Positions 5,853 through 56,178 of a DNA stretch of 64,000 nt are shown here, piece by piece (the stretch's first letter is position 1; every line of letters starts with the position of its first letter). Origin of the DNA: Paludibacter sp. Its GTDB lineage: Bacteria; Bacteroidota; Bacteroidia; Bacteroidales; Paludibacteraceae. Position numbers and translations under genes: made by a program. The notes beneath the pieces were generated by a model, which was not told the DNA's origin, made no database searches, and saw only the letters and a list, made by a program, of their open reading frames with translations. Location of the stretch: contig JAFLKK010000008.1 of NCBI GenBank assembly GCA_019163375.1, positions 310,001 to 374,000 of the forward strand, given 5' to 3'.

Positions 5853-6686
5853 TTATTCTTCTTCTTTGACGAATTTTTTGATCACGTTAGCGTTCAAAGC
5901 ATCATCATCTTCTTTTTGAGTTCTTGGTTTTTTAGTAATTCTTGACTTTTTGTCTTTTGAAACAGGAGCTTCAGCAGCTTCAGTATCAATTTTTTCTACT
6001 TTGCGTTCTTCCAAACCTTCTTGGATAGCAGCAACCATAGCGCCTAAAATTACGTCAACCGATTTTGTTGCGTCATCATTTGCAGGAATTACGAAATCAA
6101 TTCCGTTAGGATTTGAGTTAGTGTCCACGATTCCGAAAACCGGAATACCCAAACGTTGAGCTTCTAATACGGCAATGTGTTCTTTCATCACGTCTACAAT
6201 AAAAAGTGCTGAAGGAAGACGAGTCAAATCAGCGATAGAACCTAAGTTCTTTTCTAATTTCTCGCGTTGACGAGTAATTTGAAGTTTTTCGCGTTTTGAA
6301 ATATTTTCGAATGTACCATCAGTCGCCATTTTGTCGATAGTGGTCATTTTTTTAACGGCTTTACGAATAGTAGGGAAGTTAGTTAACATACCACCGGCCC
6401 AACGCTCAGTAATGTATGGCATTCCAACAGCTAATGCTTTTTCTGAAACTACATCTTTAGCTTGTTTTTTAGTTGCAACGAAAAGGATTTTACGTCCTGA
6501 TTTTGCAATTTGTTTCAATGCTGCTGCAGCTTCGTCAATTTTCACTACTGTTTTGTGCAAATCGATAATGTGAATATCGTTACGCTCCATGAAAATGTAA
6601 GGAGCCATTGCTGGATTCCATTTACGTTTCAAGTGACCAAAGTGGCAACCTGCTTCTAATAATTCGTCAAAATTTGTTCTAGACAT
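5853..6686 (-). CDS. rpsB: 30S ribosomal protein S2
   Basis: The 277-residue protein starts with the S2 signature LLEAGCHFGHLKRKWNP and carries the conserved LFVATKKQAKDVV and ERWAGGMLTNF stretches. S2 joins the small subunit late, near S1. An acidic/basic extension after about residue 230 is longer than in E. coli. It is the third gene of the operon; a 188-base gap with a large hairpin separates it from rpsI. Confidence 0.97.
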   Translation of the reverse strand: MSRTNFDELLEAGCHFGHLKRKWNPAMAPYIFMERNDIHIIDLHKTVVKIDEAAAALKQIAKSGRKILFVATKKQAKDVVSEKALAVGMPYITERWAGGMLTNFPTIRKAVKKMTTIDKMATDGTFENISKREKLQITRQREKLEKNLGSIADLTRLPSALFIVDVMKEHIAVLEAQRLGIPVFGIVDTNSNPNGIDFVIPANDDATKSVDVILGAMVAAIQEGLEERKVEKIDTEAAEAPVSKDKKSRITKKPRTQKEDDDALNANVIKKFVKEEE

Positions 6687-6783
6687 TTTTTTTGTTTAAA
6701 AAGTTGTTTACATTCTGTTTAACTCAATTGCCAAGTAGCCTTTAATTTTACTCAGAGTCTCGACAATTTAGATACTAAACCAA

Positions 6784-6866
6784 AACCATCTACTATTCAT
6801 CCATTTACTATTTACGATAGGCTTACGCGCATTGCAAAATAGTAAATGGTAAATGATAGAATGGTA
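6784..6866. repeat. Large imperfect palindrome between rpsI and rpsB
   Basis: CCATTTACTATTT (6801-6813) is the reverse complement of AAATAGTAAATGG (6837-6849), and partial pairing extends outward. The rest of the 188-base gap is AT-rich with no ORF. It could be a processing site or REP-like element within the operon. Confidence 0.6.
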
Positions 6867-6874
6867 AATAAATA

Positions 6875-7261
6875 TTAACGTTTCGAGAATTGGAATCTCT
6901 TACGTGCTTTTGGTTGACCTGGTTTTTTACGCTCAACACCACGAGGGTCACGAGTCATAAATCCTTCAACTTTAAGTGCTGGTTTGTCCTCTGGGTTCAT
7001 TTTCACCAACGCACGAGCAATTGCTAAACGCAAAGCACCCGCTTGTCCGTTAAATCCACCACCATTTAGATTTACTTTAATATCGTATTTTTCAGTCACT
7101 CCCAATTTGGTAAGAGGTTGTTTAACCACAAATTGTAATAATGGTGACGGAAAGTAAACGTTTATATCGCGTTTATTAATGGTAATTTGTCCAGTTCCTT
7201 CGCTCACGAAAACACGAGCAACAGCCGCTTTTCTTCTTCCTAAGGCATTTATTACTTCCAT
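6875..7261 (-). CDS. rpsI: 30S ribosomal protein S9
   Basis: At 128 residues it has the usual S9 length. The N-terminus NALGRRKAAVARVFV and the basic C-terminus RKRFQFSKR, which in S9 reaches the P-site tRNA, are both clear. It follows rplM after five bases, so the two are co-transcribed and probably translationally coupled. Confidence 0.97.
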   Translation of the reverse strand: MEVINALGRRKAAVARVFVSEGTGQITINKRDINVYFPSPLLQFVVKQPLTKLGVTEKYDIKVNLNGGGFNGQAGALRLAIARALVKMNPEDKPALKVEGFMTRDPRGVERKKPGQPKARKRFQFSKR

Positions 7262-7266
7262 ACTGA

Positions 7267-7722
7267 TTATTTAAGTGAGTTTAAATCTAATTGTTTTGGT
7301 TGTTGAGCTTGCATATTGTGTTCCGCACCTGGGAATACATACAAATTGCCCAAAAGTTTGTCTCCAAGACGGTTTTTAGGTAACATACCTTTCACCACTT
7401 TCTTGATAAGTTTTTCAGAACTTTTTTCCATCAATTTAGCTGGTGTAATTTCACGTTGTCCACCTGGATAGCCTGTGTGGCTTAGATAGATGCGATCGTT
7501 CCATTTGTTACCGGTTAATTGTACTTTTTCTGCATTGATAATAATCACATTATCTCCACAGTCTACGTGAGGAGTGAAACTTGGTTTGTATTTTCCGCGC
7601 AAAAGTTTTGCAACTTTTGAACCCATACGTCCCAATACCAAATCGGTAGCATCCACAACTACCCATTCTTTCTGCACCGTTGCTTTGTTGGCAGAAATGG
7701 TTTTATAACTTAACGTATCCAC
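7267..7722 (-). CDS. rplM: 50S ribosomal protein L13
   Basis: The 151-residue protein matches L13 throughout: WVVVDATDLVLGRMGSKVAKLLRGK near the N-terminus and VKGMLPKNRLG in the middle. L13 is an early-assembly protein of the large subunit. It is first in the operon, behind a consensus promoter at 7859-7888 and a leader of about 130 bases that may be regulatory. Confidence 0.97.
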   Translation of the reverse strand: MDTLSYKTISANKATVQKEWVVVDATDLVLGRMGSKVAKLLRGKYKPSFTPHVDCGDNVIIINAEKVQLTGNKWNDRIYLSHTGYPGGQREITPAKLMEKSSEKLIKKVVKGMLPKNRLGDKLLGNLYVFPGAEHNMQAQQPKQLDLNSLK

Positions 7723-7852
7723 TTGTTTAAAATGTTTTTGATTAATAATTGAGCCATTTTATTTGCTTCAATCGTATTTTGGAAGAGGCTAATCGGCACA
7801 AAATAGGATATTTACACACAACAAAACTGACCATTACACTGTGATAATAAAC
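7723..7852 (-). promoter_or_regulatory. Possible rplM 5' leader (candidate ribosomal-protein autoregulatory leader)
   Basis: About 130 bases separate the predicted start of transcription from the rplM ATG, which is long for this genome. L13 leaders are, as far as I recall, described in Bacteroidia. I can see short complementary stretches (GCC...GGC, CGATT...AATCG) but no decisive structure by eye. Confidence 0.3.
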
Positions 7853-7858
7853 GGACTG

Positions 7859-7888
7859 CAAAAATACTGTTTTTCTTTGGATTACCAA
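7859..7888 (-). promoter_or_regulatory. Promoter of the rplM operon
   Basis: On the minus strand this reads TTG-N19-TATTTTTG, a full match to the Bacteroidetes sigma-A promoter. Confidence 0.75.
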
Positions 7889-8117
7889 ACAATTAAGCAT
7901 CTTTTTTTCGCATAGATATTTTCAGCGGAAAATAGGGAGTAAATTCCTCAAAAAAAAGTGCAAAATGGTGTAGCATTTATCATTATGAATCCTTAGATTT
8001 GCACATTATTAATTTTGACCGGACAATTGATGAAAATTCCTTCGATGGGGTGTTTTCAACTTTATTCTACGACGAAATACTGTTTCTTGTCAAACTGTAA
8101 CAACTAACACATCTGCA

Positions 8118-9200
8118 TTGAAAAAAATATTTAAAGAAAAACCGTCACTTAGCATACAATATAAAACCAGTTTTTTACTTGTCTTAGTTGTTGCACTCGT
8201 CGCTTTCCTCACGCAGAAAGTAATTGGCTACATAGGCACTGCACTGTTACTGCTGGTTGTAGTGTCGTTACTGGCAATAACATTCGAAATTATGCCCGTA
8301 CTGCTTTCAGCCATCTTAAGCGCATTGGTACTTAATTTCTTCTTTATACCCCCACTCTACACTTTTCATATTGACAATTCGGAAGATATACTCCTTTTTC
8401 TAATGTTTATCGTTATAGCATTGATAAATGCAGTACTCACAAACAAGATTCGAAAAGCCGAAAAAACAGCCAGAGATAAAGAAGAGAAGGAAAACTCAAT
8501 CAGACTGTACAACACACTTTTAAACTCACTGTCGCACGAACTGAGAACGCCCATCTCCACCATTCTGGGAGCTGTAGACATTATAAAGGAGAACAGGGAC
8601 AAACTGAGCGCAAAACAACGCGACGAATTATTAACCGAAATTGGCACGGCGAGTATCCGACTCAATCATCAGGTCGACAACCTACTCAACATGAACCGAC
8701 TTGAAACGGGAATGCTGAAACTGAAACTCGATTGGTGCGATATAAATGAATTAATTTATTCTGTCATTCAGAAGCTTGATCTGACTACTAAAAAGAACAA
8801 CCTGAAATTTAAAGACAATGATCAGTTACCGCTGATAAAGCTCGACAGCGGATTGATGGAGCACGTATTCTACAATATACTGAACAATGCTATCCTTTAT
8901 ACGCCCGAATATTCAACCATAACGATTGATGTTTCCTACAATGATGGTACACTCATAATTGTAATCTTTGATGACGGCAATGGTTTTCCTGAGTCTGAAA
9001 TTCCGTTTTTGTTTGAAAAATTTTACCGCCTGCCGAACACCAAAACGGGTGGTAGCGGCTTGGGATTATCCATATCAAAAGGCTATATAGAAGCACATAA
9101 CGGCACCATTGTTGCCGAAAATAACATACCAATAGGCGCTAAATTCAGTATAAATATACCTGTTGAAAGTTCATTTATAAATAATCTGAAGAATGAATAA
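8118..9200 (+). CDS. KdpD-like sensor histidine kinase, short form without KdpD N-terminal domain
   Basis: The 360-residue protein starts at a TTG. Residues about 15-110 hold four membrane segments of the DUF4118/KdpD transmembrane type, with the FFIPPLYTF loop. Next comes the H-box SLSHELRTPIST with phospho-acceptor H140, then an ATPase domain with FYNILNNAI (N-box), FDDGNGF and GGSGLGLSIS. The universal-stress/KdpD sensor region of full-length KdpD is absent. It overlaps the response regulator by 8 bases and precedes kup, so it probably senses potassium or osmotic state. A -7-like TAGATTTG is at 7994-8001. Confidence 0.9.
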   Translation: MKKIFKEKPSLSIQYKTSFLLVLVVALVAFLTQKVIGYIGTALLLLVVVSLLAITFEIMPVLLSAILSALVLNFFFIPPLYTFHIDNSEDILLFLMFIVIALINAVLTNKIRKAEKTARDKEEKENSIRLYNTLLNSLSHELRTPISTILGAVDIIKENRDKLSAKQRDELLTEIGTASIRLNHQVDNLLNMNRLETGMLKLKLDWCDINELIYSVIQKLDLTTKKNNLKFKDNDQLPLIKLDSGLMEHVFYNILNNAILYTPEYSTITIDVSYNDGTLIIVIFDDGNGFPESEIPFLFEKFYRLPNTKTGGSGLGLSISKGYIEAHNGTIVAENNIPIGAKFSINIPVESSFINNLKNE

Positions 9201-9870
9201 TCCTGAGATTTTAATTATCGACGACGAACCACAAATACGCAAACTTCTGGAAATCACTCTAGAAAGCAACGATTACAGAGTTTGGCAAGCTGCCACAGGC
9301 AAGGAAGGCATTTTAATGGCTGCCAACCACACGCCCGAACTGATTCTACTCGATCTTGGATTGCCCGACAAAAGCGGACACGAGGTATTGAAGGAATTGA
9401 GGACGTGGTACAATAAATCGATCATTATCCTTTCGGTGCAAAACACCGAAAATGACATTATTACAGCACTGGACAATGGCGCTACCGACTATCTGACCAA
9501 ACCATTCCGCACGGGCGAACTGCTGGCCCGCATTCGATCTTCGATACGCAGACACATGTCGGAAGAAAACAACAGCTTGATAACATGCGGCGAATTGCAA
9601 ATAGACCTGGTAGCCAGAATCGTAAAACAAAACGACGAAATCGTAAAACTGACTTCGACCGAATACAACTTAATGGCATTGTTTGCTAAAAACGAAGGAC
9701 GCGTACTAACACATCAATTTATTTTGCGCGAAATATGGGGTTTCAACTATCAAACCGAGACACAATATTTACGCGTCTTTATAGGCACACTTCGGAAGAA
9801 AATTGAGCTAATACCCAATCAACCAAAACATATCATTACCGAAAATGGTGTTGGATATCGTTTTACCTAA
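9193..9870 (+). CDS. KdpE-like OmpR-family response regulator
   Basis: The 225-residue protein has a receiver domain (acidic pair D10/D11, phospho-acceptor D54 in LLDLGLPD, LTKPF lysine) followed by a winged-helix DNA-binding domain (LTSTEYNLM, EIWGFNYQTETQYLRVFIGTLRKK). That recognition region is typical of KdpE. It starts inside the kinase gene and is translationally coupled with it. No kdpFABC genes are present in the window; the adjacent kup gene is the obvious candidate target. Confidence 0.92.
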   Translation: MNNPEILIIDDEPQIRKLLEITLESNDYRVWQAATGKEGILMAANHTPELILLDLGLPDKSGHEVLKELRTWYNKSIIILSVQNTENDIITALDNGATDYLTKPFRTGELLARIRSSIRRHMSEENNSLITCGELQIDLVARIVKQNDEIVKLTSTEYNLMALFAKNEGRVLTHQFILREIWGFNYQTETQYLRVFIGTLRKKIELIPNQPKHIITENGVGYRFT

Positions 9871-9935
9871 TCAATCTTTATAAAATCTTTATACATCGCA
9901 CCAATTATTTTACTTTTTGCCAATATCCTTGTAGC

Positions 9936-9943
9936 TACTTTTG
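9936..9943 (+). promoter_or_regulatory. -7 element of the kup promoter
   Basis: TACTTTTG fits TAnnTTTG and overlaps the upstream TTG (9941) used by the ORF track, which supports the ATG at 9965 as the true start. Confidence 0.55.
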
Positions 9944-9964
9944 CCGCATAAAAATATAGCAAAA

Positions 9965-11956
9965 ATGGAAAAAACAAAAAGTGGTATAAAAAGTAAAGTT
10001 ACAGCCGCCTCATTATTAGTTGCCCTGGGTATAATCTATGGCGACATTGGAACAAGTCCTTTGTATGCTTTGAGAGCAGTAATCGGACACAGAATGATTA
10101 ATATGGATTTGGTTTATGGCGGTGTATCCTGTATTTTCTGGACACTGGTATTCCAAACAACAATTAAGTACATTTGGCTTACACTCCGGGCCGACAATCA
10201 GGGTGAAGGGGGCATCTTTTCATTGTACGCACTGGTTGGGAAGTACAACAAAAAACTAGTATTGGTAGCCATATTAGGCGCCACCACCTTATTAGCCGAT
10301 GGTATTATCACCCCTCCCATTTCCGTAGCTTCGGCCATTGAAGGTTTAAATTTAGTGCAGGGATTAGAAAACGTCATAGTACCCGGAAATGACTTAACCA
10401 TTGGTATTGTAATAGCGATACTCTCCGTCCTGTTTTTCATTCAACGATTTGGAACAGAGGTAATCGGAAAATTTTTCGGTCCTATGATGGCTGTTTGGTT
10501 TAGCATGCTTTTGGTTTTCGGAGTTCACCAAATAGTTATTCACCCCGATGTTTTAAAATCACTTAACCCTTATTATGCCTATAATCTTCTTGCCAATTAC
10601 CCCAATGGCTTCTGGCTATTAGGTGCAGTATTTCTTTGTACCACAGGTGCCGAGGCTTTATATTCCGACCTTGGACACTGCGGAATTCGCAATATCAGAA
10701 TCACATGGATTTTTGTAAAGATAAGTTTAGTAACTTGTTATCTCGGTCAGGCGGCATGGCTCATGCATCTCGGTCAACCATTTTTGAACGGTCGCAATCC
10801 TTTTTTCGAAATCATTCCTCACTGGTTCCTATTGCCAAGTATTTTAATTGCAACTGCGGCAACTATTATAGCCTCTCAAGCGTTAATAAGTGGTAGTTAC
10901 ACGCTGATAAGCGAAGCCATGAACTTAAACTTCTGGCCACGTATCACCGTGCGCCAACCGACGGAAAGTAAAGGTCAGATATATATTCCAAGTGTAAATA
11001 CCATACTTTGGTTTGGATGTATTTTAATGATTTTATACTTCAAGGAAAGCTCACACATGGAAGCCGCCTATGGGTTCTCCATCTCCATTACCATGTTAAT
11101 GACAACCGTTCTTTTGAGTTATTTTCTAATATACAAATTGCAATGGAAAAAGATTTATATTGTATCCATTCTAATGATATTTAGCACTATAGAGATTGCA
11201 TTTTTTATAGCCAATGTGGCTAAAATCAAAGAACGCTGGATGTTCCTTTTCTTCGAATTATTCATATTTTTGGTAATGTATATTTGGTTTAAAGCACGTA
11301 GAATATCGAACAGTTTCACAAAATTCGTTGAAATCGGACAGTTTAGCAGCAAGCTCAAAGAGCTAAGCAATGACACTTCAATTCCAAAGTTCTCTACGCA
11401 TTTAATATATCTTACAAAAGCAAATAAACGTCACGAAATTGAAGAGAAGATCTTCAATTCAATTTTTGCAAAGAAACCAAAACGTGCTGATGTATATTGG
11501 TTTGTACACATTAATCGCACCGAACATCCTTACACATTAGATTATTCTGTGTCGGAATTAATTGAAGATAAGTTGATTAAAATTGATATAAATGTAGGAT
11601 TCAGGGTGCAACCTCGTACTGAATTGTATTTCAAAAAGATAGTTCAGGAACTTATCGCCAACAAAGAACTGAATTTACACACCAGAACAGATGCTGCCTG
11701 TAAGTATAATGATGAGCCGGATTTCAAATTTGTGGTCATCGAAAAATTCCTATCAGTCGAAAATGAATTTGGCCTGCGCGAAGGAATGTTACTTAAAGGA
11801 TACGTATACCTAAAACACATGGGACTAAGGGATATTCAGGCTTTTGGATTGGATAAAAATGATGTTGAGGTAGAGCATATTCCACTTATCTATCATCCGG
11901 TAAACAATATCGATTTACATAGAATTGACAGTAATTCAAACATGAAACTAAGTTAA
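9965..11956 (+). CDS. kup: Kup family potassium uptake transporter
   Basis: Kup proteins import K+ with protons across the inner membrane. The 663-residue product begins its membrane domain with the family signature LGIIYGDIGTSPLYAL, followed by about 12 hydrophobic segments and a soluble C-terminal domain from about residue 450. The ORF track begins at TTG 9941, but that codon overlaps a -7 element, and the ATG at 9965 gives MEKTKSGIK, so I take 9965. It lies 94 bases after the KdpDE-like system and 11 bases before a HAMP protein with which it should be co-transcribed. Confidence 0.95.
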   Translation: MEKTKSGIKSKVTAASLLVALGIIYGDIGTSPLYALRAVIGHRMINMDLVYGGVSCIFWTLVFQTTIKYIWLTLRADNQGEGGIFSLYALVGKYNKKLVLVAILGATTLLADGIITPPISVASAIEGLNLVQGLENVIVPGNDLTIGIVIAILSVLFFIQRFGTEVIGKFFGPMMAVWFSMLLVFGVHQIVIHPDVLKSLNPYYAYNLLANYPNGFWLLGAVFLCTTGAEALYSDLGHCGIRNIRITWIFVKISLVTCYLGQAAWLMHLGQPFLNGRNPFFEIIPHWFLLPSILIATAATIIASQALISGSYTLISEAMNLNFWPRITVRQPTESKGQIYIPSVNTILWFGCILMILYFKESSHMEAAYGFSISITMLMTTVLLSYFLIYKLQWKKIYIVSILMIFSTIEIAFFIANVAKIKERWMFLFFELFIFLVMYIWFKARRISNSFTKFVEIGQFSSKLKELSNDTSIPKFSTHLIYLTKANKRHEIEEKIFNSIFAKKPKRADVYWFVHINRTEHPYTLDYSVSELIEDKLIKIDINVGFRVQPRTELYFKKIVQELIANKELNLHTRTDAACKYNDEPDFKFVVIEKFLSVENEFGLREGMLLKGYVYLKHMGLRDIQAFGLDKNDVEVEHIPLIYHPVNNIDLHRIDSNSNMKLS

Positions 11957-11967
11957 AAATAAACATT

Positions 11968-12930
11968 ATGAAACTAAAAATCAGAACTAAAGTTCTTCTT
12001 GGGATTCTATTTGTTTTTGTGGAATTTGTTATTATTGGCTCGCTGAGCATGTACTATATTTCCACCCTGAAATATGGCTCAGAACTATTGATCAAAAACA
12101 ATTACAGATCTGTTCAGTACGCCGAGAATATGATTCAATCGCTTGACGAAACCAACACTGCCGTTAACTCATTGTTTTTAAACAAACACTATCAATACGA
12201 CAAAGAATTGGTGGCCGGATCATTCGATAAATTTGAAAAAAATCTTCAATTAGAAGGTCAAAACATTACCGAATTAGGAGAAAAAGAATTGGTACAATCC
12301 ATCAAAGAGAAGTATGCCAGGTACAAATCACTGGTATTGGAACAAAATATAAAATCGATACCCGACAAGGTGAATTTTTACACCTTTAATATTTTGCCGC
12401 TCACCAATGAGCTCAAAGCACAGATATTCTCAGTTTCAACACTTAACATGCATTCTATTGTTCAGAAAAACGAGAAACTAAGTGAAATGGTGAGCCAAAT
12501 CTACAAAAATCTATCCATTCTACTTACGTTCTGTTTGCTGATTACAGCTTCGTTCCTGTTTAATTTTCCGAACTATATTGCAGGTCCAATTAAGCGAATT
12601 ACAGAGAACATAAAGGAAATGGTTAATAATAATTTTAGCAGTAGAATAAGAATATCGACAAACGATGAATTCAAGGAGTTATCAGAAGCAATCAATGATA
12701 TGGCAGAGAAGCTTGAAACGAACTACAAGCACGTGGAATTACAGCCAGCGGTAACGAGCGTTCCCGAGATAGATGAAAATGAGATTTTACAGAACATACA
12801 AGGCCTGCTGGAGTCAATCCGACCGGTTATTGAGTCCATTTCAAAAAACAGTGGCAACAAAACCCTGCTGCAACAATCGGAGCTTCTTAAAGAAATTGAA
12901 TACGAATTGTCGAAAGCAATTAAACCTTAA
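11968..12930 (+). CDS. Orphan membrane sensor with HAMP domain but no kinase domain
   Basis: The 320-residue protein has membrane helices at about 8-31 and 181-200, flanking a 150-residue helical extracytoplasmic region, then a HAMP linker (about 201-253; GPIKRITENIKEMV, DEFKELSEAINDMAEKL). After HAMP the related Bacteroidetes proteins I know of continue into a histidine kinase core. Here there are only about 65 residues, predicted helical, with no H-box or ATPase motif. No frameshifted kinase remnant is seen downstream. It lies 11 bases after kup and may regulate Kup or the KdpD-like kinase; this is inference. Confidence 0.8.
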   Translation: MKLKIRTKVLLGILFVFVEFVIIGSLSMYYISTLKYGSELLIKNNYRSVQYAENMIQSLDETNTAVNSLFLNKHYQYDKELVAGSFDKFEKNLQLEGQNITELGEKELVQSIKEKYARYKSLVLEQNIKSIPDKVNFYTFNILPLTNELKAQIFSVSTLNMHSIVQKNEKLSEMVSQIYKNLSILLTFCLLITASFLFNFPNYIAGPIKRITENIKEMVNNNFSSRIRISTNDEFKELSEAINDMAEKLETNYKHVELQPAVTSVPEIDENEILQNIQGLLESIRPVIESISKNSGNKTLLQQSELLKEIEYELSKAIKP

Positions 12931-48981: not shown

Positions 48982-49206
48982 ATGAGTCGGGGTGCTCAAT
49001 CTATAAATCGGGGTCTTAAAATTATAAATCGGGGTGTTAATAACATAACTAGGGGAGCAAAAAATATAAATCGGGGCGTTAAAAACATAAGTCGGGGCGT
49101 TAAAAACATAAAACGGGGTGTTAATAATATAAATCGGGGTCTTAAAAATACAATTCGGGGAGCAAAAAATAGAATTCGGGGAGCCGAAAATATAAATCGG
49201 GGCTGA
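48982..49206 (+). repeat. 21-bp tandem repeat array coding for a possible 74-residue heptapeptide-repeat protein
   Basis: Eleven GGGG tracts occur at exactly 21-bp spacing from 48989 to 49202 with no insertion or deletion. The plus-strand ORF reads as heptads of the form I-N-R-G-V-K-N; Arg-Gly is present in every unit. Gly third bases vary (GGT/GGA/GGC), Arg alternates CGG/AGG and Asn AAT/AAC, which hints at selection on the protein. The ORF starts with ATG at 48982 and ends in a TGA inside the last unit. The product would be very basic. The opposite strand is also open (48996-49214), a consequence of the period being divisible by three. I know of no family. Confidence 0.75.
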
Positions 49207-50603: not shown

Positions 50604-50611
50604 TATATTTG
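50604..50611 (+). promoter_or_regulatory. -7 element of the methyltransferase operon promoter
   Basis: TATATTTG, with TTC rather than TTG 20 bases upstream. It overlaps the ORF-track start at 50609 and puts the transcription start only about 9 bases before the ATG at 50627. Confidence 0.6.
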
Positions 50612-50626
50612 CATAAAATTTATTAT

Positions 50627-51844
50627 ATGAGCGCGAAACAATACAAATATATCGATCTATTTGCCGGATGCGGAGGACTTTCTTTAGGTCTACACAATGC
50701 AGGTTGGAAGGGAATATTTGCCATTGAAAAAAATTCCGATGCATTCAAAACCCTGAAATATAATCTGATTGACAATAAGAAACATTTTGACTGGCCTGAA
50801 TGGCTCCCTCAAGAAAGTATCGAAATTGATAAAGCTGTTGAACTTTACAAAGACAATTTTTTGAAGTTACGAGGCAAAGTAGACTTAGTGGCAGGAGGAC
50901 CGCCCTGTCAAGGTTTTTCTATGGCGGGACGGAGAAATGAAAGTGATCAAAGAAATAATCTGATTACTTCCTATATAGATTTTATCAAAGTAATACAACC
51001 TAAAATCCTTTTTTTCGAAAATGTAAAGGGTTTTACAATGGAGTTTAAAAAGAACAGAGATAAGGGGAAAGAATATTCTTCGTATGTTGAAAGTGAGCTT
51101 AATGCCGCTGGTTATTTTGTAAAAGGTCAGTTGGTCAACTTTGGAGAATATGGCGTACCTCAAAAGAGAACACGATTTATTCTTGTTGGCGTTAGAAAGA
51201 ACTTGAAAAATGCAACACAAGAAACAGCCAATGCATTTTTCTCTAAAATACAAGAGAATAAGCACTCATTTCTAGCTGAAAAAAATCTAACAGTAGGTAC
51301 AAATCTAGAAGATGCAATCTCTGATTTGCTAAAAGAAAATGGCCTAAGAGAATCGCCAGATACAAAAAGGTTCGAGGCTGGAATATACTCAGATGCTGAT
51401 AGCAACTATCAAAGACTTATGCGTGTAGGTATTGAAAATGAAATTGCAGATAGTCATCGGTTTCCGAAACATAGACCAGATATTATTGCTAAGTTTCAGG
51501 TCATTTTAAATAATTGCAGAAAAAACTTCGATATTGATGCTAAAACAAGAGAGCACTTTAACATCAAGAAACACACCATTATTCCACTTGACAAGAACTC
51601 AAAAACGCCTACAATAACCACTTTGCCAGATGATTATATTCATTACTCTGAACCAAGAATTCTGACAGTTAGAGAGTACGCAAGAATTCAATCATTCCCT
51701 GATTGGTATAAATTCCGAGGTAAATATACAACTGGCGGTAAACGCCGCACACAAGAAGTTCCCAGATACTCACAAATAGGAAATGCTATACCACCTCTTT
51801 TTGCTGAGCAAGGTGGATTAGTGTTGAAACAATTGATAAGCTAA
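50627..51844 (+). CDS. DNA (cytosine-5-)-methyltransferase
   Basis: The 405-residue protein (from ATG 50627) has the ordered C5-MTase motifs: I DLFAGCGGLSLGLHNAGW, IV GGPPCQGFS with catalytic C94, VI ENV (131-133), VIII QKRTRF, and IX/X in YARIQSFPDWYKF and QIGNAIPPLFAEQ. The target-recognition region is about 215-330. It presumably protects host DNA at a site that cannot be read from sequence. Its TAA overlaps the next ATG by one base (TAATG), so the neighbouring ATPase is translationally coupled. No helicase or specificity subunit is present. Confidence 0.95.
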   Translation: MSAKQYKYIDLFAGCGGLSLGLHNAGWKGIFAIEKNSDAFKTLKYNLIDNKKHFDWPEWLPQESIEIDKAVELYKDNFLKLRGKVDLVAGGPPCQGFSMAGRRNESDQRNNLITSYIDFIKVIQPKILFFENVKGFTMEFKKNRDKGKEYSSYVESELNAAGYFVKGQLVNFGEYGVPQKRTRFILVGVRKNLKNATQETANAFFSKIQENKHSFLAEKNLTVGTNLEDAISDLLKENGLRESPDTKRFEAGIYSDADSNYQRLMRVGIENEIADSHRFPKHRPDIIAKFQVILNNCRKNFDIDAKTREHFNIKKHTIIPLDKNSKTPTITTLPDDYIHYSEPRILTVREYARIQSFPDWYKFRGKYTTGGKRRTQEVPRYSQIGNAIPPLFAEQGGLVLKQLIS

Positions 51845-54435
51845 TGGCAAACAGTTTAGAATTTCGTGTTAGTACAGGGCTCAAAGATATAATTGGCAAA
51901 GATTTAATTACCGATGAATTTATTGCTGTATTTGAACTTGTCAAAAACTCTTATGATGCAAGAGCCAAAAATGTTTCAATAACGATTGAAGATGATAAAA
52001 TTGTTATTGCGGATGATGGGAAAGGCATGTCGTTAGATGATCTGAATAACAAGTGGCTATTTGTAGCTTTTTCTGCAAAAAAAGATGGAACAGAAGATGA
52101 ATATTTAAATCAAGATAAATCTTATCGAGATAAAATTCAAGAAAGACGTCATTACGCGGGTGCAAAAGGTATTGGAAGATTTTCTTGTGACCGTTTAGGT
52201 CGATTTCTTACTGTAATAACACAAAAAGAAAAATTAGATTTAATTGAACAGATTAAAGTTGATTGGAGTAAATTTGAAGTTGACCAAAAAGAAGTTTTCC
52301 AGAAAGTGAAAGTCGATCATGATACAATAAAAGAATATTGTATACCTTTTCCAAAGGATTCTTTAAATGGAACTATCTTGGAGATAACAGGTTTATATAC
52401 AAATTGGAATCGAGAACGTTTGAAACAACTAAAACACTCGCTTGAAAAATTAATAAATCCATTTTCAGAAACAAATGACTTTAATATTGAAATTATTTGC
52501 AAAAGAGAGGAGATCGAAGATAATACTAAAGATAATGGGGGTATTTACAAATATATTGAAAGAGATAGAGTTAATGGTCCTGTAAAGAATTCAATACTCC
52601 AAATACTTGAAATTAAGACAACTCAATTAAGTGTAGAAATTAATTCAGAATCAATAACTAGCAAAATCATTGATAGAGGCAATTTGATTTATAGCATTAA
52701 AGAAAAGAATAGTGATTTTCCATTTCTTTCTAATTTGAGAATGGATCTGTTTTTTTTAAACAATTCTGCAAAAAATAATTTCACTCGTAAGATGGGTATT
52801 GAGCCTGTAAATTTCGGGTCGATATTCCTTTTTAAGAATGGGTTTCGTGTACAGCCATATGGTAATCCTGGAGATGATAGTTGGGGATTAGATTATCGAG
52901 CTCAGCAGGGATACAATAGATTCTTAGGAACTCGAGATTTATTTGGAAGAATTGAGATACAAACTGATGACACGGACCAATTCAAAGAAGTTTCTAGTCG
53001 AGATGGGGGACTTGTAGAGACATTTGGTTATTATCAAATAATGAAAGCCTTTAAAGAAAAAGGGTTAGTTAGATTAGAAAGATACGTAGTTGGAGTACTT
53101 TGGGGAGAGGGTTTCAAACGAAAAAAATATTTTGGAGAAGGCAAAGATGCAAATTTGACTGCTGATAATTATAGGAAGAATCTTCAAGATTATGATAAGA
53201 TTTCTGATAATGTCAATTCGGTAAAATCCAATTTGGGAAGTAAAATTGATTTTATACAAATCATTAAAAGTTTAGCCTCAAATAAGGATGTTGAAATACT
53301 TGAATATGATAAAGAATTTATCAATCTAATTAACGATAAACTAGATGAAAATCAATCAAGATTTATCTCTGATTTGCATGATATTGCAGAACAGACCCAT
53401 GATGAGGAACTAAAAGAGAAAATTTTAGATGAAGAAAAGAGATATCAACAATTATTATTAGAAAAAGAAGAGGCCGAAAAGAAAGCACTTGATGAAGAAA
53501 ATAAAAGAATTGAGGCTGAATCAAAAGCAAAAAAAGAAGAAGAAGCAAGGATAAGGGCTGAAAAAAAACAGAAAGAAGAAGAAGAAAAAAGAAGATTAGC
53601 TGAGGTTGCAACATTAATAAAAGAAAAGGAAAGGGCAGAAGCAGTTATTGCAAAGCTTCTAGCTGAAAGAACAGCAAAAGAGGAAGCGGAAAAAAGAGTA
53701 AAAGAAGAGCAGGCAAGGATAAAAGCTGAAAACGAAGTCTTAAAAAGAAAAGAACAAATTTCTAGATATAAAGCTGCTGAAACTATTGAATATAAAGATT
53801 TAAGAGACTCTAATCACATTATTGGCGTTTATTCTGATGACATTTCTAAAAAAATATTATTGCTAAAAAGAAAATTAGATAGAGGTCAAGCTATAGATAA
53901 TAATAGTTTAATAAGCTTCATACAAGGAGTTAGTCTTGCTAATGAAAAAATATCGACATTAACACGATTTACTACAAAGTCTGGGTTTTTACAAGCATCA
54001 TTAGAGACAGAAGAAGACATTGTTTCTTACATTTCTAAATATATTAAAAATATATATCAGATTTTATACAAAATTGAGATTGAGATTATTGATAATGGAA
54101 TTTCATTTCAAAAGAAATTTCAACCAATAGAATTATGTGTAGCATTAGATAATATATTGAGTAACTCAAGGAAGAAAAATGCTAAAAAGATAATATTAGA
54201 GTTTGAAAATAGAGGTGAAATGCTTTCTATAAAAATTAGAGATGTAGGCGAGAAATTGTCTGAAAGTATAAAAGATTGGAAATTGATATTTGAAGAGGGG
54301 GTAACTACAACAAAAGGTTCAGGACTTGGGCTAAATCATGTCAAAAGAATCATCGAAGATGATTTAGGTGGTGAAATAATTTATAATCCAGAATATAAAA
54401 ATGGTTTTGAACTAATAATATCAATGAAAAAATGA
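51844..54435 (+). CDS. Two-headed GHKL protein: HSP90/MORC-like ATPase domain plus histidine-kinase-like core
   Basis: Of 863 residues, 1-205 form a GHKL ATPase of HSP90/MORC/MutL type: FELVKNSYDA (31-38), DDGKGM (57-62), GAKGIGRFS (106-114). Residues about 295-420 fit the following S5-like domain (FLFKNGFRVQPYG). A long charged coiled coil covers about 515-645. The C-terminus (650-863) looks like a histidine kinase: H658 in DSNHIIG is a possible phospho-acceptor, DNILSNSRKKNA an N-box, IRDVGEKL and GSGLGLNHVK the ATP lid. No membrane segment. It overlaps both neighbours (TAATG and ATGA). Codons are AT-rich compared with flanking genes. Sensor of infection or DNA state is inference; the ATPase motifs are seen. 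Confidence 0.88.
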   Translation: MANSLEFRVSTGLKDIIGKDLITDEFIAVFELVKNSYDARAKNVSITIEDDKIVIADDGKGMSLDDLNNKWLFVAFSAKKDGTEDEYLNQDKSYRDKIQERRHYAGAKGIGRFSCDRLGRFLTVITQKEKLDLIEQIKVDWSKFEVDQKEVFQKVKVDHDTIKEYCIPFPKDSLNGTILEITGLYTNWNRERLKQLKHSLEKLINPFSETNDFNIEIICKREEIEDNTKDNGGIYKYIERDRVNGPVKNSILQILEIKTTQLSVEINSESITSKIIDRGNLIYSIKEKNSDFPFLSNLRMDLFFLNNSAKNNFTRKMGIEPVNFGSIFLFKNGFRVQPYGNPGDDSWGLDYRAQQGYNRFLGTRDLFGRIEIQTDDTDQFKEVSSRDGGLVETFGYYQIMKAFKEKGLVRLERYVVGVLWGEGFKRKKYFGEGKDANLTADNYRKNLQDYDKISDNVNSVKSNLGSKIDFIQIIKSLASNKDVEILEYDKEFINLINDKLDENQSRFISDLHDIAEQTHDEELKEKILDEEKRYQQLLLEKEEAEKKALDEENKRIEAESKAKKEEEARIRAEKKQKEEEEKRRLAEVATLIKEKERAEAVIAKLLAERTAKEEAEKRVKEEQARIKAENEVLKRKEQISRYKAAETIEYKDLRDSNHIIGVYSDDISKKILLLKRKLDRGQAIDNNSLISFIQGVSLANEKISTLTRFTTKSGFLQASLETEEDIVSYISKYIKNIYQILYKIEIEIIDNGISFQKKFQPIELCVALDNILSNSRKKNAKKIILEFENRGEMLSIKIRDVGEKLSESIKDWKLIFEEGVTTTKGSGLGLNHVKRIIEDDLGGEIIYNPEYKNGFELIISMKK

Positions 54436-55331
54436 GGCTAGAATATAGAATACTATGGGTTGAAGATAATAAATCTTGGTACGAAACGACAAAAGAATTG
54501 TTCACAGATACATTAGATGAACTAGGATTTAGACTTGTTTCGAAAAAGTGTGAGAATATTGATGAGGTAAAAGCTGAAATAAGTAAAAATTGGCTCAAAG
54601 AATATGATTTACTGTTAGTTGATTTCACTCTTAAAAATTCAGAATCAGGAGACAAAATAATAGAATTCATCCGTGGAATTCAAGAACAGCCTATTTTAAC
54701 TGACATTATTTTCTATTCAAGTGCAGTTGAAAATGTTAGAGAAAGTATGCACAAGCTTGGATTAGAAGGCGTTTATTCTGCAGATAGAAATGAGATAGAC
54801 ACAAAGTTTGACCTTGTCGTGAATACAACAATTAAAAAGGTTCAAGACATAAATAATATGAGAGGATTAGTTATGGCTGAAGTTGCAGAACTTGATAACA
54901 AAATGATTGATTTGCTAAAGAGATATGTAGATGGACTTAAATCTGAACAAAAACAAGAATTCATAGATAAAAGGAAAAAACGAGTTCTTGAATCTCTGGA
55001 AAAAATGATCAATGACTTTACAGACATTTCCGAAGTTTCAATTTTTGAACATAGAGATTTTAATACATATCATAAATGGATGTCTGTGAAAAACCTTGTA
55101 AAGAATATTGATGATAAGGACATAAAAACGAAGCTTAATGAATACGAAAAAGAAATTATACAAAAACGAAATAAACTAGCGCATGTAAAAGAAATAACTG
55201 GCGAAAATGGCGAAAGAACTTTAGCAGATGGCGATTTTATTTTTAACGATGAGATATGCCGAGAGATAAGAAAAGATTTGCAGAAACACGCTGAGAATTT
55301 CGAAAAGATTAAAGAAAAACTTACCGTTTAG
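54432..55331 (+). CDS. Receiver-domain protein with C-terminal HEPN-like Rx4H domain
   Basis: Residues 1-130 form a receiver domain: ILWVEDN (E11/D12), phospho-acceptor D64 in LLLVDFT, and FYSSA (S96/S97); the usual KP lysine is not obvious. Residues about 145-295 are all-helical and contain KRNKLAHVKE, an R246-x4-H251 motif as in HEPN ribonucleases of toxins and CRISPR/abortive-infection proteins. There is no DNA-binding domain of OmpR/NarL type. The gene starts four bases before the kinase-like gene ends (ATGA) and precedes the HNH gene by 10 bases. Likely the phosphorylation partner of the upstream protein; RNase activity is inferred only from the motif. Confidence 0.8.
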   Translation: MRLEYRILWVEDNKSWYETTKELFTDTLDELGFRLVSKKCENIDEVKAEISKNWLKEYDLLLVDFTLKNSESGDKIIEFIRGIQEQPILTDIIFYSSAVENVRESMHKLGLEGVYSADRNEIDTKFDLVVNTTIKKVQDINNMRGLVMAEVAELDNKMIDLLKRYVDGLKSEQKQEFIDKRKKRVLESLEKMINDFTDISEVSIFEHRDFNTYHKWMSVKNLVKNIDDKDIKTKLNEYEKEIIQKRNKLAHVKEITGENGERTLADGDFIFNDEICREIRKDLQKHAENFEKIKEKLTV

Positions 55332-55341
55332 TTTTCATTAA

Positions 55342-56118
55342 ATGAAGGCAGGACAAAGACTTTGGACAAGAGATGAGTTGATTTTATTAATGAATCTTTA
55401 CTGTAAGCTCCCTTTCGGTAAAATGAATCATACCAATTCGTTAATTATCCAATTGGCAGAATTGATAGGAAGAACCCCATCTTCTGTTACTTTAAAGTTA
55501 AGTAATCTTGCTAGCTTTGATCCGTCATTAAGGGCAAGAGGAGTAAGAGGAGCTGTAAATGCAAGTAAACTAGATAAAGAAATATGGGATGAGTTTTATC
55601 AGAATTGGGATAATACTTTGATACAGAGTGAAACATTATTGGCAACTAAAAGCCACTCTACCATAGAAAAAATTAATCATATTGATCTTACAGATTTGCC
55701 CAAAGATGGTATTGAAAAAGAGAGATTGGTAAAGACCAGAGTCAACCAATCAATTTTTAGAAATATTGTGTTGGCAACCTACAACAGCCGCTGTTGTATT
55801 ACCGGTATTGAAAATGCTGAGCTTTTAATTGCTAGTCATATTGTTCCTTGGAGTAAAGACGATAAAAACAGGCTGAACCCTATGAATGGCCTTTGTTTAA
55901 ATTCACTTCACGACAAAGCATTTGATTGTGGTTTAATAGCGATTTCTCCCGATGATTATTCATTAAAAATTTCTCCTACATTAAAAAGCAAGACTATTTC
56001 ACCTGCTATTGAAAGTAATTTTATTGCTTTTGAAAACAAATCTATCATTCTCCCTGATAAGTTTCTGCCATCGAAGGAGTTTCTGGATTATCATTATCAG
56101 CATATTTTCAGAAAGTAA
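55342..56118 (+). CDS. HNH endonuclease, probable restriction enzyme
   Basis: The 258-residue protein has an HNH_2-type nuclease domain at about 135-215: CCITGIE, ASHIVPWSKD (H166), NPMNGLCLNSLHDKAFD (N182, H190). The first 90 residues (RLWTRDELILLMNLYCKLPFG, TPSSVTLKLSNLASFDP) are typical of stand-alone restriction-type HNH proteins. As the only clear DNase of the operon it is the probable restriction counterpart of the methyltransferase at 50627. A terminator follows at 56152. Confidence 0.88.
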   Translation: MKAGQRLWTRDELILLMNLYCKLPFGKMNHTNSLIIQLAELIGRTPSSVTLKLSNLASFDPSLRARGVRGAVNASKLDKEIWDEFYQNWDNTLIQSETLLATKSHSTIEKINHIDLTDLPKDGIEKERLVKTRVNQSIFRNIVLATYNSRCCITGIENAELLIASHIVPWSKDDKNRLNPMNGLCLNSLHDKAFDCGLIAISPDDYSLKISPTLKSKTISPAIESNFIAFENKSIILPDKFLPSKEFLDYHYQHIFRK

Positions 56119-56151
56119 TCGCTCCTACTCTATTACCCCCCCAACTACTAT

Positions 56152-56178
56152 CCCCGCATAAGAATGTGGGGATTTTTT
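56152..56178 (+). terminator. Terminator of the methyltransferase-HNH operon
   Basis: CCCCGCAT...ATGTGGGG stem followed by ATTTTTT. Confidence 0.8.

Follow-up and report, generated by a model that had tools for sequence, protein, structure and literature searches.

A C5-methyltransferase-linked histidine kinase and receiver-HEPN protein in Paludibacter sp.: a candidate two-component abortive-defence locus

Four intact co-directional genes occupy the plus strand at positions 50627–56118 of the window, that is, of the whole 64,000-nucleotide stretch of Paludibacter sp. DNA that was analysed. They specify a C5-cytosine DNA methyltransferase, a histidine kinase with two GHKL ATPase domains, a receiver protein with a HEPN-type output domain, and an HNH endonuclease. 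We think it probable that this is a methylation-guarded two-component abortive-defence locus, in which a phosphorelay would release an RNase and the HNH protein would be an accessory. The locus represents more than a chance assembly since the set of methyltransferase, kinase and receiver recurs in unrelated phyla. In a survey of 96 kinase loci a C5-methyltransferase gene accompanies the kinase in 93, and in a group of sister loci the HEPN-type output is exchanged for a caspase-like protease.

Gene organization and encoded proteins

The features of the locus, all on the plus strand, are as follows:

50604–50611, +, candidate Bacteroidota-type -7 box TATATTTG, read by eye, 16 bases 5' of the methyltransferase ATG
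50627–51844, +, C5-cytosine DNA methyltransferase, 405 aa (ATG 50627, TAA 51844; PF00145, 7.4e-59)
51844–54435, +, double-GHKL histidine kinase, 863 aa (HATPase_c_3 and HATPase_c)
54432–55331, +, receiver protein with HEPN-type domain, candidate effector, 299 aa
55342–56118, +, HNH_2 endonuclease, 258 aa (PF13391), an optional member
56150–56178, +, intrinsic terminator, about 32 bases past the HNH stop (-15.4 kcal/mol, z -3.65)

The initial annotation had described a tightly packed, AT-rich gene set bounded by a promoter box and a terminator, and most of this description stands. One base is common to the methyltransferase stop and the kinase start (TAATG), the receiver start overlaps the kinase stop by 4 bases (ATGA), and 10 bases separate the receiver stop from the HNH start. 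An in-frame TTG at 50609 is a possible alternative start for the methyltransferase. The GC content of the operon is 31.9% versus 40.5% in the remainder of the window, and none of the upstream stretches of operon length that were sampled fell below 37%. Based upon this difference in composition, recent acquisition of the operon is plausible. Neither an integrase nor an empty site was found for it; in the empty-site comparison the upstream neighbours of the hemerythrin gene which lies downstream of the operon varied among relatives. The terminator is a 10-pair hairpin (ATCCCCGCAT-AAGA-ATGTGGGGAT) followed by T's. As for the promoter, the Bacteroidota -7 consensus is TAnnTTTG and the box TATATTTG can be read by eye, but a sigma-70 scan of the region returned sites no more numerous than in shuffled sequences. 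Since the box was read by eye and only sigma-70 sites were scanned, the evidence for a promoter at this box is weak. Further upstream, at 48987–49203 and just past an alanine-dehydrogenase-like gene, lie about 10 copies of a tandem 21-base unit (78% matches), an array that reads through as NRG-rich ORFs on either strand.

The first protein is the C5-methyltransferase that it had been taken for. Its catalytic motifs are complete (DLFAGCGG, PPCQ, ENV, QKRTRF and GNAIPP), all of the C5 motifs looked for being present, and it is 86% identical to the methyltransferase of the corresponding operon in genome G037 (locus L017).

The second protein, originally described as an HSP90/MORC-histidine kinase hybrid, has just this construction. 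Its Pfam matches are HATPase_c_3 [2.5e-20, residues 27–155] and HATPase_c [2.7e-16, residues 762–861]. An N-terminal MutL/MORC-like ATPase, which aligns with PMS1/MutL, is followed by a middle region to about residue 420, a coiled coil (about 510–650), a DHp-like helix bearing His658, and the C-terminal HATPase_c domain. The C-terminal 230 positions align with HK853 [2c2a/5uht, 1.5e-11], placing His658 on the phospho-His H260. His658 is invariant (105/105 kinases), and across the same 105 proteins the ATP-site residues checked are invariant in the N-terminal domain and nearly invariant in the C-terminal domain. The protein thus possesses the phospho-His and the N, G1 and G2 boxes of a histidine kinase as well as the N-terminal GHKL domain with ATP motifs found in paraMORC proteins. 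On reading the sequence no membrane part was found. An S5 domain after the N-terminal GHKL domain is only suggested, from the region of the conserved Lys310.

The third protein comprises a receiver (residues 1–137, phospho-Asp 64) and a helical HEPN-type domain (140–298) which carries R246-N-K-L-A-H251. A model based upon a 61-row alignment (pLDDT 89) displays a (beta-alpha)5 domain and then a helical domain. While the window protein alone matches no receiver family, Response_reg is matched by 46 of the 61 family members [best 3.6e-11], the family profile matches CheY-type receivers in the PDB by sequence, and the fold of the model also matches receivers. In an alignment of 85 receivers, which includes the receiver-only protein of locus L085, no variation occurs at Asp64 or at the acidic pair (85/85). 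Of the features of a receiver, namely the (beta-alpha)5 fold, phospho-Asp, acidic pair, beta-4 Thr/Ser and beta-5 Lys, only the last deviates, being mostly replaced by Arg (R119 in 71/85).

Active HEPN RNases are helical bundles in which helix 3 ends in an Rx4-6H motif with a polar residue after the Arg (PMC3710099). In the model the Rx4H motif RNKLAH (246–251) ends a helix at 229–249, and where the alignment of 85 has a letter R246 is conserved in 83/83, the Asn in 80/83 and H251 in 84/84 proteins. HEPN_Swt1 is the only Pfam match of the window protein [E 0.019 to 0.0088, 15.7–16.8 bits versus a cut-off of 27.5]; relatives match HEPN_RiboL-PSP, down to 1.1e-5, and the Pfam families recurrently matched by the isolated C-terminal domains are HEPN families, below their curated cut-offs. 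No curated HEPN profile matched the window protein above its cut-off, the HEPN part by itself, searched against PDB sequences, gave only chance helical matches, and Foldseek with the whole model reported the receiver half and not the HEPN half. No DNA-binding output domain was found. Because the family matches lie under the curated cut-offs, we regard the C-terminal domain as a probable HEPN domain, for which the sequence predicts RNase activity. The original assignment of this gene as a receiver-HEPN protein is in agreement with the relatives, the motif and the model, though no database profile was matched above cut-off by the window protein.

The fourth protein has a DNA-binding-like N-terminal region and an HNH_2 core. 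Its homologs [PF13391, 2.7e-12; PADLOC HNH model PDLC04132, 1.2e-93; PDB 6yex, an HNH endonuclease, 3.6e-12] bear out its description as an HNH endonuclease.

Linkage, distribution and exchange of the output protein

Searches for the receiver-HEPN gene were positive in 3 of 60 near relatives and, across the phylum, in 8 of 396 genomes (2%), both counts including the window's own genome. A profile search of the 396 genomes recovered the identical eight genomes obtained by the single-sequence search, all with the gene in the context of the kinase and a C5-methyltransferase. The kinase and C5-methyltransferase genes were also adjacent to each of the ten receiver-HEPN genes first found (10/10).

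A larger set of loci was found by the kinase alignment alone, with one genome per species. It consists of the best 80 of at least 407 loci, ranked by kinase similarity, together with 16 loci on viral contigs, and is not a random sample. The C5-methyltransferase gene present in 93 of these 96 loci lies directly upstream on the same strand in 70, convergent downstream in 17 and elsewhere in 6. The three loci without it include L082, on a 6.5-kb contig, and L118, which ends just past the receiver. Since most genomes have few C5-methyltransferases, chance is not a plausible cause of this association. The link to restriction-modification drawn in the initial annotation is supported. Synteny is conserved among the homologous loci, and the kinase and receiver genes are for the most part accompanied by a methylase; the opposite of either had been named as damaging.

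Members of the Bacteroidota, Pseudomonadota, Spirochaetota, Verrucomicrobiota, Planctomycetota, Campylobacterota, Calditrichota and Acidobacteriota are among the hosts, as is the archaeon Methanimicrococcus. Some of the 16 loci on viral contigs adjoin tail-fibre genes. A plasmid search for the receiver gave no match. The kinase matches on plasmids belong to a more distant class with varied partners: L006 (8067–9780, Hymenobacter) has a receiver gene and an MBL-fold hydrolase, and L005 (8334–9541, Bacteroides finegoldii) a receiver gene, a different HNH protein and an N6-methyltransferase. These partners suggest still more effector types.

By output the 96 loci divide into 75 with a receiver-HEPN protein, 20 with a receiver-only protein, and one (L078) in which the contig ends. 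Among the 75 is L116, on a viral contig, the kinase gene of which is interrupted; at 7989–11969 of this locus an opposite-strand ORF of 494 aa, probably an inserted element, splits the gene.

The receiver-only gene encodes about 235 aa, and is followed in 19 of the 20 loci (the contig ends in L065) by a gene for a protein of about 220 aa. Neither protein of this variant, to which L085 belongs, matches a Pfam family. In 18 aligned members of the 220-aa protein a G-H-G and a Cys are invariant. Its model (pLDDT 95) matches in the PDB caspase-4 first, drICE second and MALT1 fourth, with probabilities of 0.90–0.99 and modest E-values of 0.001–0.02. Based upon the model and the invariant His and Cys, we read this protein as caspase-like. 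Well-supported branches of the kinase tree, which was constructed with FastTree only, force at least four changes between HEPN and caspase-type outputs. Exchange of the killer with retention of the methylase is what would be expected of a kinase that serves as a sensor module for interchangeable effectors.

The HNH gene behaves differently from this conserved core. It is present in 4 of the 10 loci first found by the receiver (the window, L017, L019 and L022), and in the kinase survey in 3 of the 75 receiver-HEPN loci (L064, L094 and L103; E < 1e-20). Relatives of the HNH protein occur in 31 of 297 genomes of the phylum; nearly all of 20 such neighbourhoods inspected were without a kinase of the window type. 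One genome (L018/L058) has a counterpart of the HNH protein's N-terminal region fused to the N terminus of the kinase itself; this hints at a means by which the kinase may be recruited to DNA. The HNH protein is best read as an accessory, and we have dropped it as a core gene. The fixed four-gene system originally proposed must accordingly be reduced to a conserved unit of methyltransferase, kinase and receiver/effector.

Several other genes adjoin the system. In five receiver-HEPN loci (L072, L102, L106, L108 and L117) the next gene, about 0.9 kb after the kinase gene, encodes a PNKP-type polynucleotide phosphatase [PF25109, 3.7e-31 for L106], which could heal HEPN-cut RNA ends or act as a brake. 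Vsr-like endonucleases, recognized by eye, adjoin nine loci (including L045, L056, L063 and L104), and HhH-GPD base-excision glycosylases adjoin seven (including L035, L055 and L061); both kinds of enzyme are expected beside 5-methylcytosine. The receiver gene is often followed by genes for further C5-methyltransferases and for an AAA_5 (McrB-like) protein (L034, L038, L045, L049, L050, L093 and L103), so that several modification-linked systems are stacked in those loci. In Escherichia phage PhiR44_1 (L190, record 6021–9069) a gene annotated as ParaMORC3 lies beside Dcm, between replication and portal genes; this is another methylase-GHKL pair carried as cargo by a P2-like phage.

Relation to described systems

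The initial annotation knew of no named system with this set of genes, which is only partly correct. Bellieny-Rabelo et al. (2021; PMC8011034) described kinases composed of HATPase_c_3, HEF_HK and HATPase_c, linked to a receiver-like gene, C5-methyltransferases, HNH_2 and Vsr, and suggested their descent from paraMORC ATPases. The likeness to the window extends to the DHp region of the kinase, the adjacent receiver-like gene and the upstream C5-methyltransferase, with HNH_2 and Vsr nearby; in the examples L125–L127 the gene order is as in the window, and L127 also has an HNH gene of the window family. We nevertheless rejected both family assignments. HEF_HK (PF19191) is unmatched in the window kinase and nine aligned relatives, and anywhere in the window's genome; Response_reg_2 (PF19192) is unmatched in the window receiver and matched by 3 of 61 family members [best 0.0023]. 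The HEF_HK partner receiver is about 545 aa long and has no detectable similarity to the receiver-HEPN protein of about 300 aa. Since its kinases lack HEF_HK and its receiver is not Response_reg_2, the window locus is, as judged from these profiles, a separate branch of a known kinase-receiver kind. No report of a HEPN or caspase output for such kinases was found in the open-licence literature.

GHKL ATPases of the paraMORC/MORC group have been reported in restriction-modification operons (Iyer et al. 2008; PMC2292703), and paraMORC-Ymh(HEPN) fusions in such loci were read as defence (PMC3710099). The window locus shares with these a MutL-like N-terminal GHKL ATPase in an operon context of C5-methyltransferase, HNH and Vsr, and its HEPN coupling therefore has precedent. 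In the window, by contrast, one polypeptide holds both the ATPase and an entire histidine kinase, and the HEPN domain would be coupled to it by a predicted phosphorelay via a separate receiver. The BbrUII/HgiDII-type GHKL restriction enzymes (NCBIfam NF050001) match residues 29–226 of the kinase, the GHKL part only [5.7e-21]; at 75 versus 550 bits the protein falls far under the family cut-off, and the model has no kinase or receiver partner.

The Detocs system reportedly consists of a TPR sensor kinase, a separate receiver "buffer" protein and an effector, the best known being the PNP ATP nucleosidase. This three-gene defensive two-component system (Rousset et al. 2023; PMC11249213) is the nearest working analogue, in that a relay from histidine kinase to receiver-effector in abortive defence is what we predict, from sequence alone, for the window. 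Features of the window locus that set it apart from Detocs are the methyltransferase, the GHKL-type sensor and the HEPN-type effector (caspase-like in the sister loci), and a third signalling gene is absent from its operon. Among the models matched in PADLOC 2.0.0 scans none was of the Detocs type. Of the existing defence models with which a comparison was proposed at the outset, those of PADLOC include none for the kinase or the receiver. One figure of PMC13092281, which presents predicted, unvalidated systems, abbreviates HATPase and REC.

A possible relay and competing readings

Based upon its family the C5-methyltransferase would mark host DNA at target sites. The kinase might act as a cytoplasmic sensor, its MutL/MORC-like ATPase engaging DNA and responding to unmodified or replicating foreign DNA. 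That it reads methylation, or phage at all, we infer from the neighbouring genes. The C-terminal kinase domain, with its conserved residues, would phosphorylate His658 in an ATP-dependent manner, and the phosphate would presumably move from there to the invariant Asp64 of the receiver encoded immediately downstream. The phosphorylated receiver may then release or dimerise the HEPN-type domain, the Arg246/His251 site of which would cleave RNA and stop the infected cell. The HNH protein could serve as a facultative DNA-cutting arm in this strain, outside the core relay. Because kinases of this type are paired in the sister loci with a receiver-only protein and a caspase-like protease, the core may be the sensor relay, with exchangeable killers.

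Counted for this defence relay are the linkage, the relay residues, the HEPN motif, the effector exchange, the L018/L058 fusion, the loci on viral contigs and the paraMORC-HEPN precedent; counted against it are the HEPN E-value of 0.019 in the window protein, the beta-5 Arg, and the convergent orientation of about one fifth of the methyltransferases. The most economical reading is the one first proposed, a signalling relay with RNA cleavage as its end point, this activity being predicted from conserved residues. We advance more tentatively, and lean somewhat against, the broader proposition of an unnamed, widespread immune family in which a MORC/MutL-like ATPase-kinase reads DNA methylation as self versus non-self and a His-Asp relay arms a HEPN RNase or a caspase-like protease.

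The kinase and receiver share one operon with the methyltransferase and HNH genes, and might instead be a regulatory two-component system which tunes these neighbouring restriction-modification enzymes, the HEPN-like domain being a non-catalytic output. Such a role was proposed, as speculation, for the related HEF_HK pair (PMC8011034). We consider it unlikely: conservation within the output domain is highest at the HEPN catalytic residues, for which a passive domain would have no need, most loci are without an HNH restriction enzyme of the window family to regulate, the output is swapped for a caspase-like protease in the sister loci, and no DNA-binding output domain was found.

Rather unlikely, too, is an ordinary type II pair of C5-methyltransferase and HNH endonuclease that gained an unrelated kinase-receiver pair. 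In the few loci that have both, these two enzymes do vary together: in comparisons of the window with L017, L022 and L019 the identities are 86, 76 and 68% for the methyltransferase and 74, 59 and 50% for the HNH protein, while those of the kinases are about 39%. In a type II system, however, a methyltransferase and an endonuclease of the same specificity would be conserved together, whereas here it is the kinase and receiver that accompany the C5-methyltransferase (93/96 loci), with HNH in only 3/75, and the HNH relatives inspected mostly lack the kinase.

We give least credence to a selfish addiction module, in which the kinase would sense that the methylation mark, or the locus itself, had been lost, HEPN would kill the losers and phage defence would be secondary; its anatomy would be identical to that of the defence relay, from which it cannot be separated by sequence, addiction by restriction-modification systems is a known phenomenon (reviewed in PMC8011034), and the locus is patchy and found on proviruses, but addiction alone leaves the caspase-like swap and the optional nucleases unexplained.

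The defence relay, which we prefer, is open to single-residue tests at H658, D64 and H251, and, for the protease, at its invariant His and Cys. Direct cutting of DNA is the usual picture of a restriction system. The present locus suggests that some methylases may work with a two-component phosphorelay, the output of which is RNA cleavage or, in the sister loci, a caspase-like protease, and it supplies a concrete candidate effector for restriction-modification kinase-receiver pairs which had been published without a function. MORC-type ATPases are known in eukaryotes for chromatin silencing; here they are linked to a role in bacterial defence which can be tested, in loci from many phyla and from one archaeon. 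If the relay operates as proposed, bacteria would possess a signalling path by which the state of DNA modification leads to RNA shut-off or to caspase activation.
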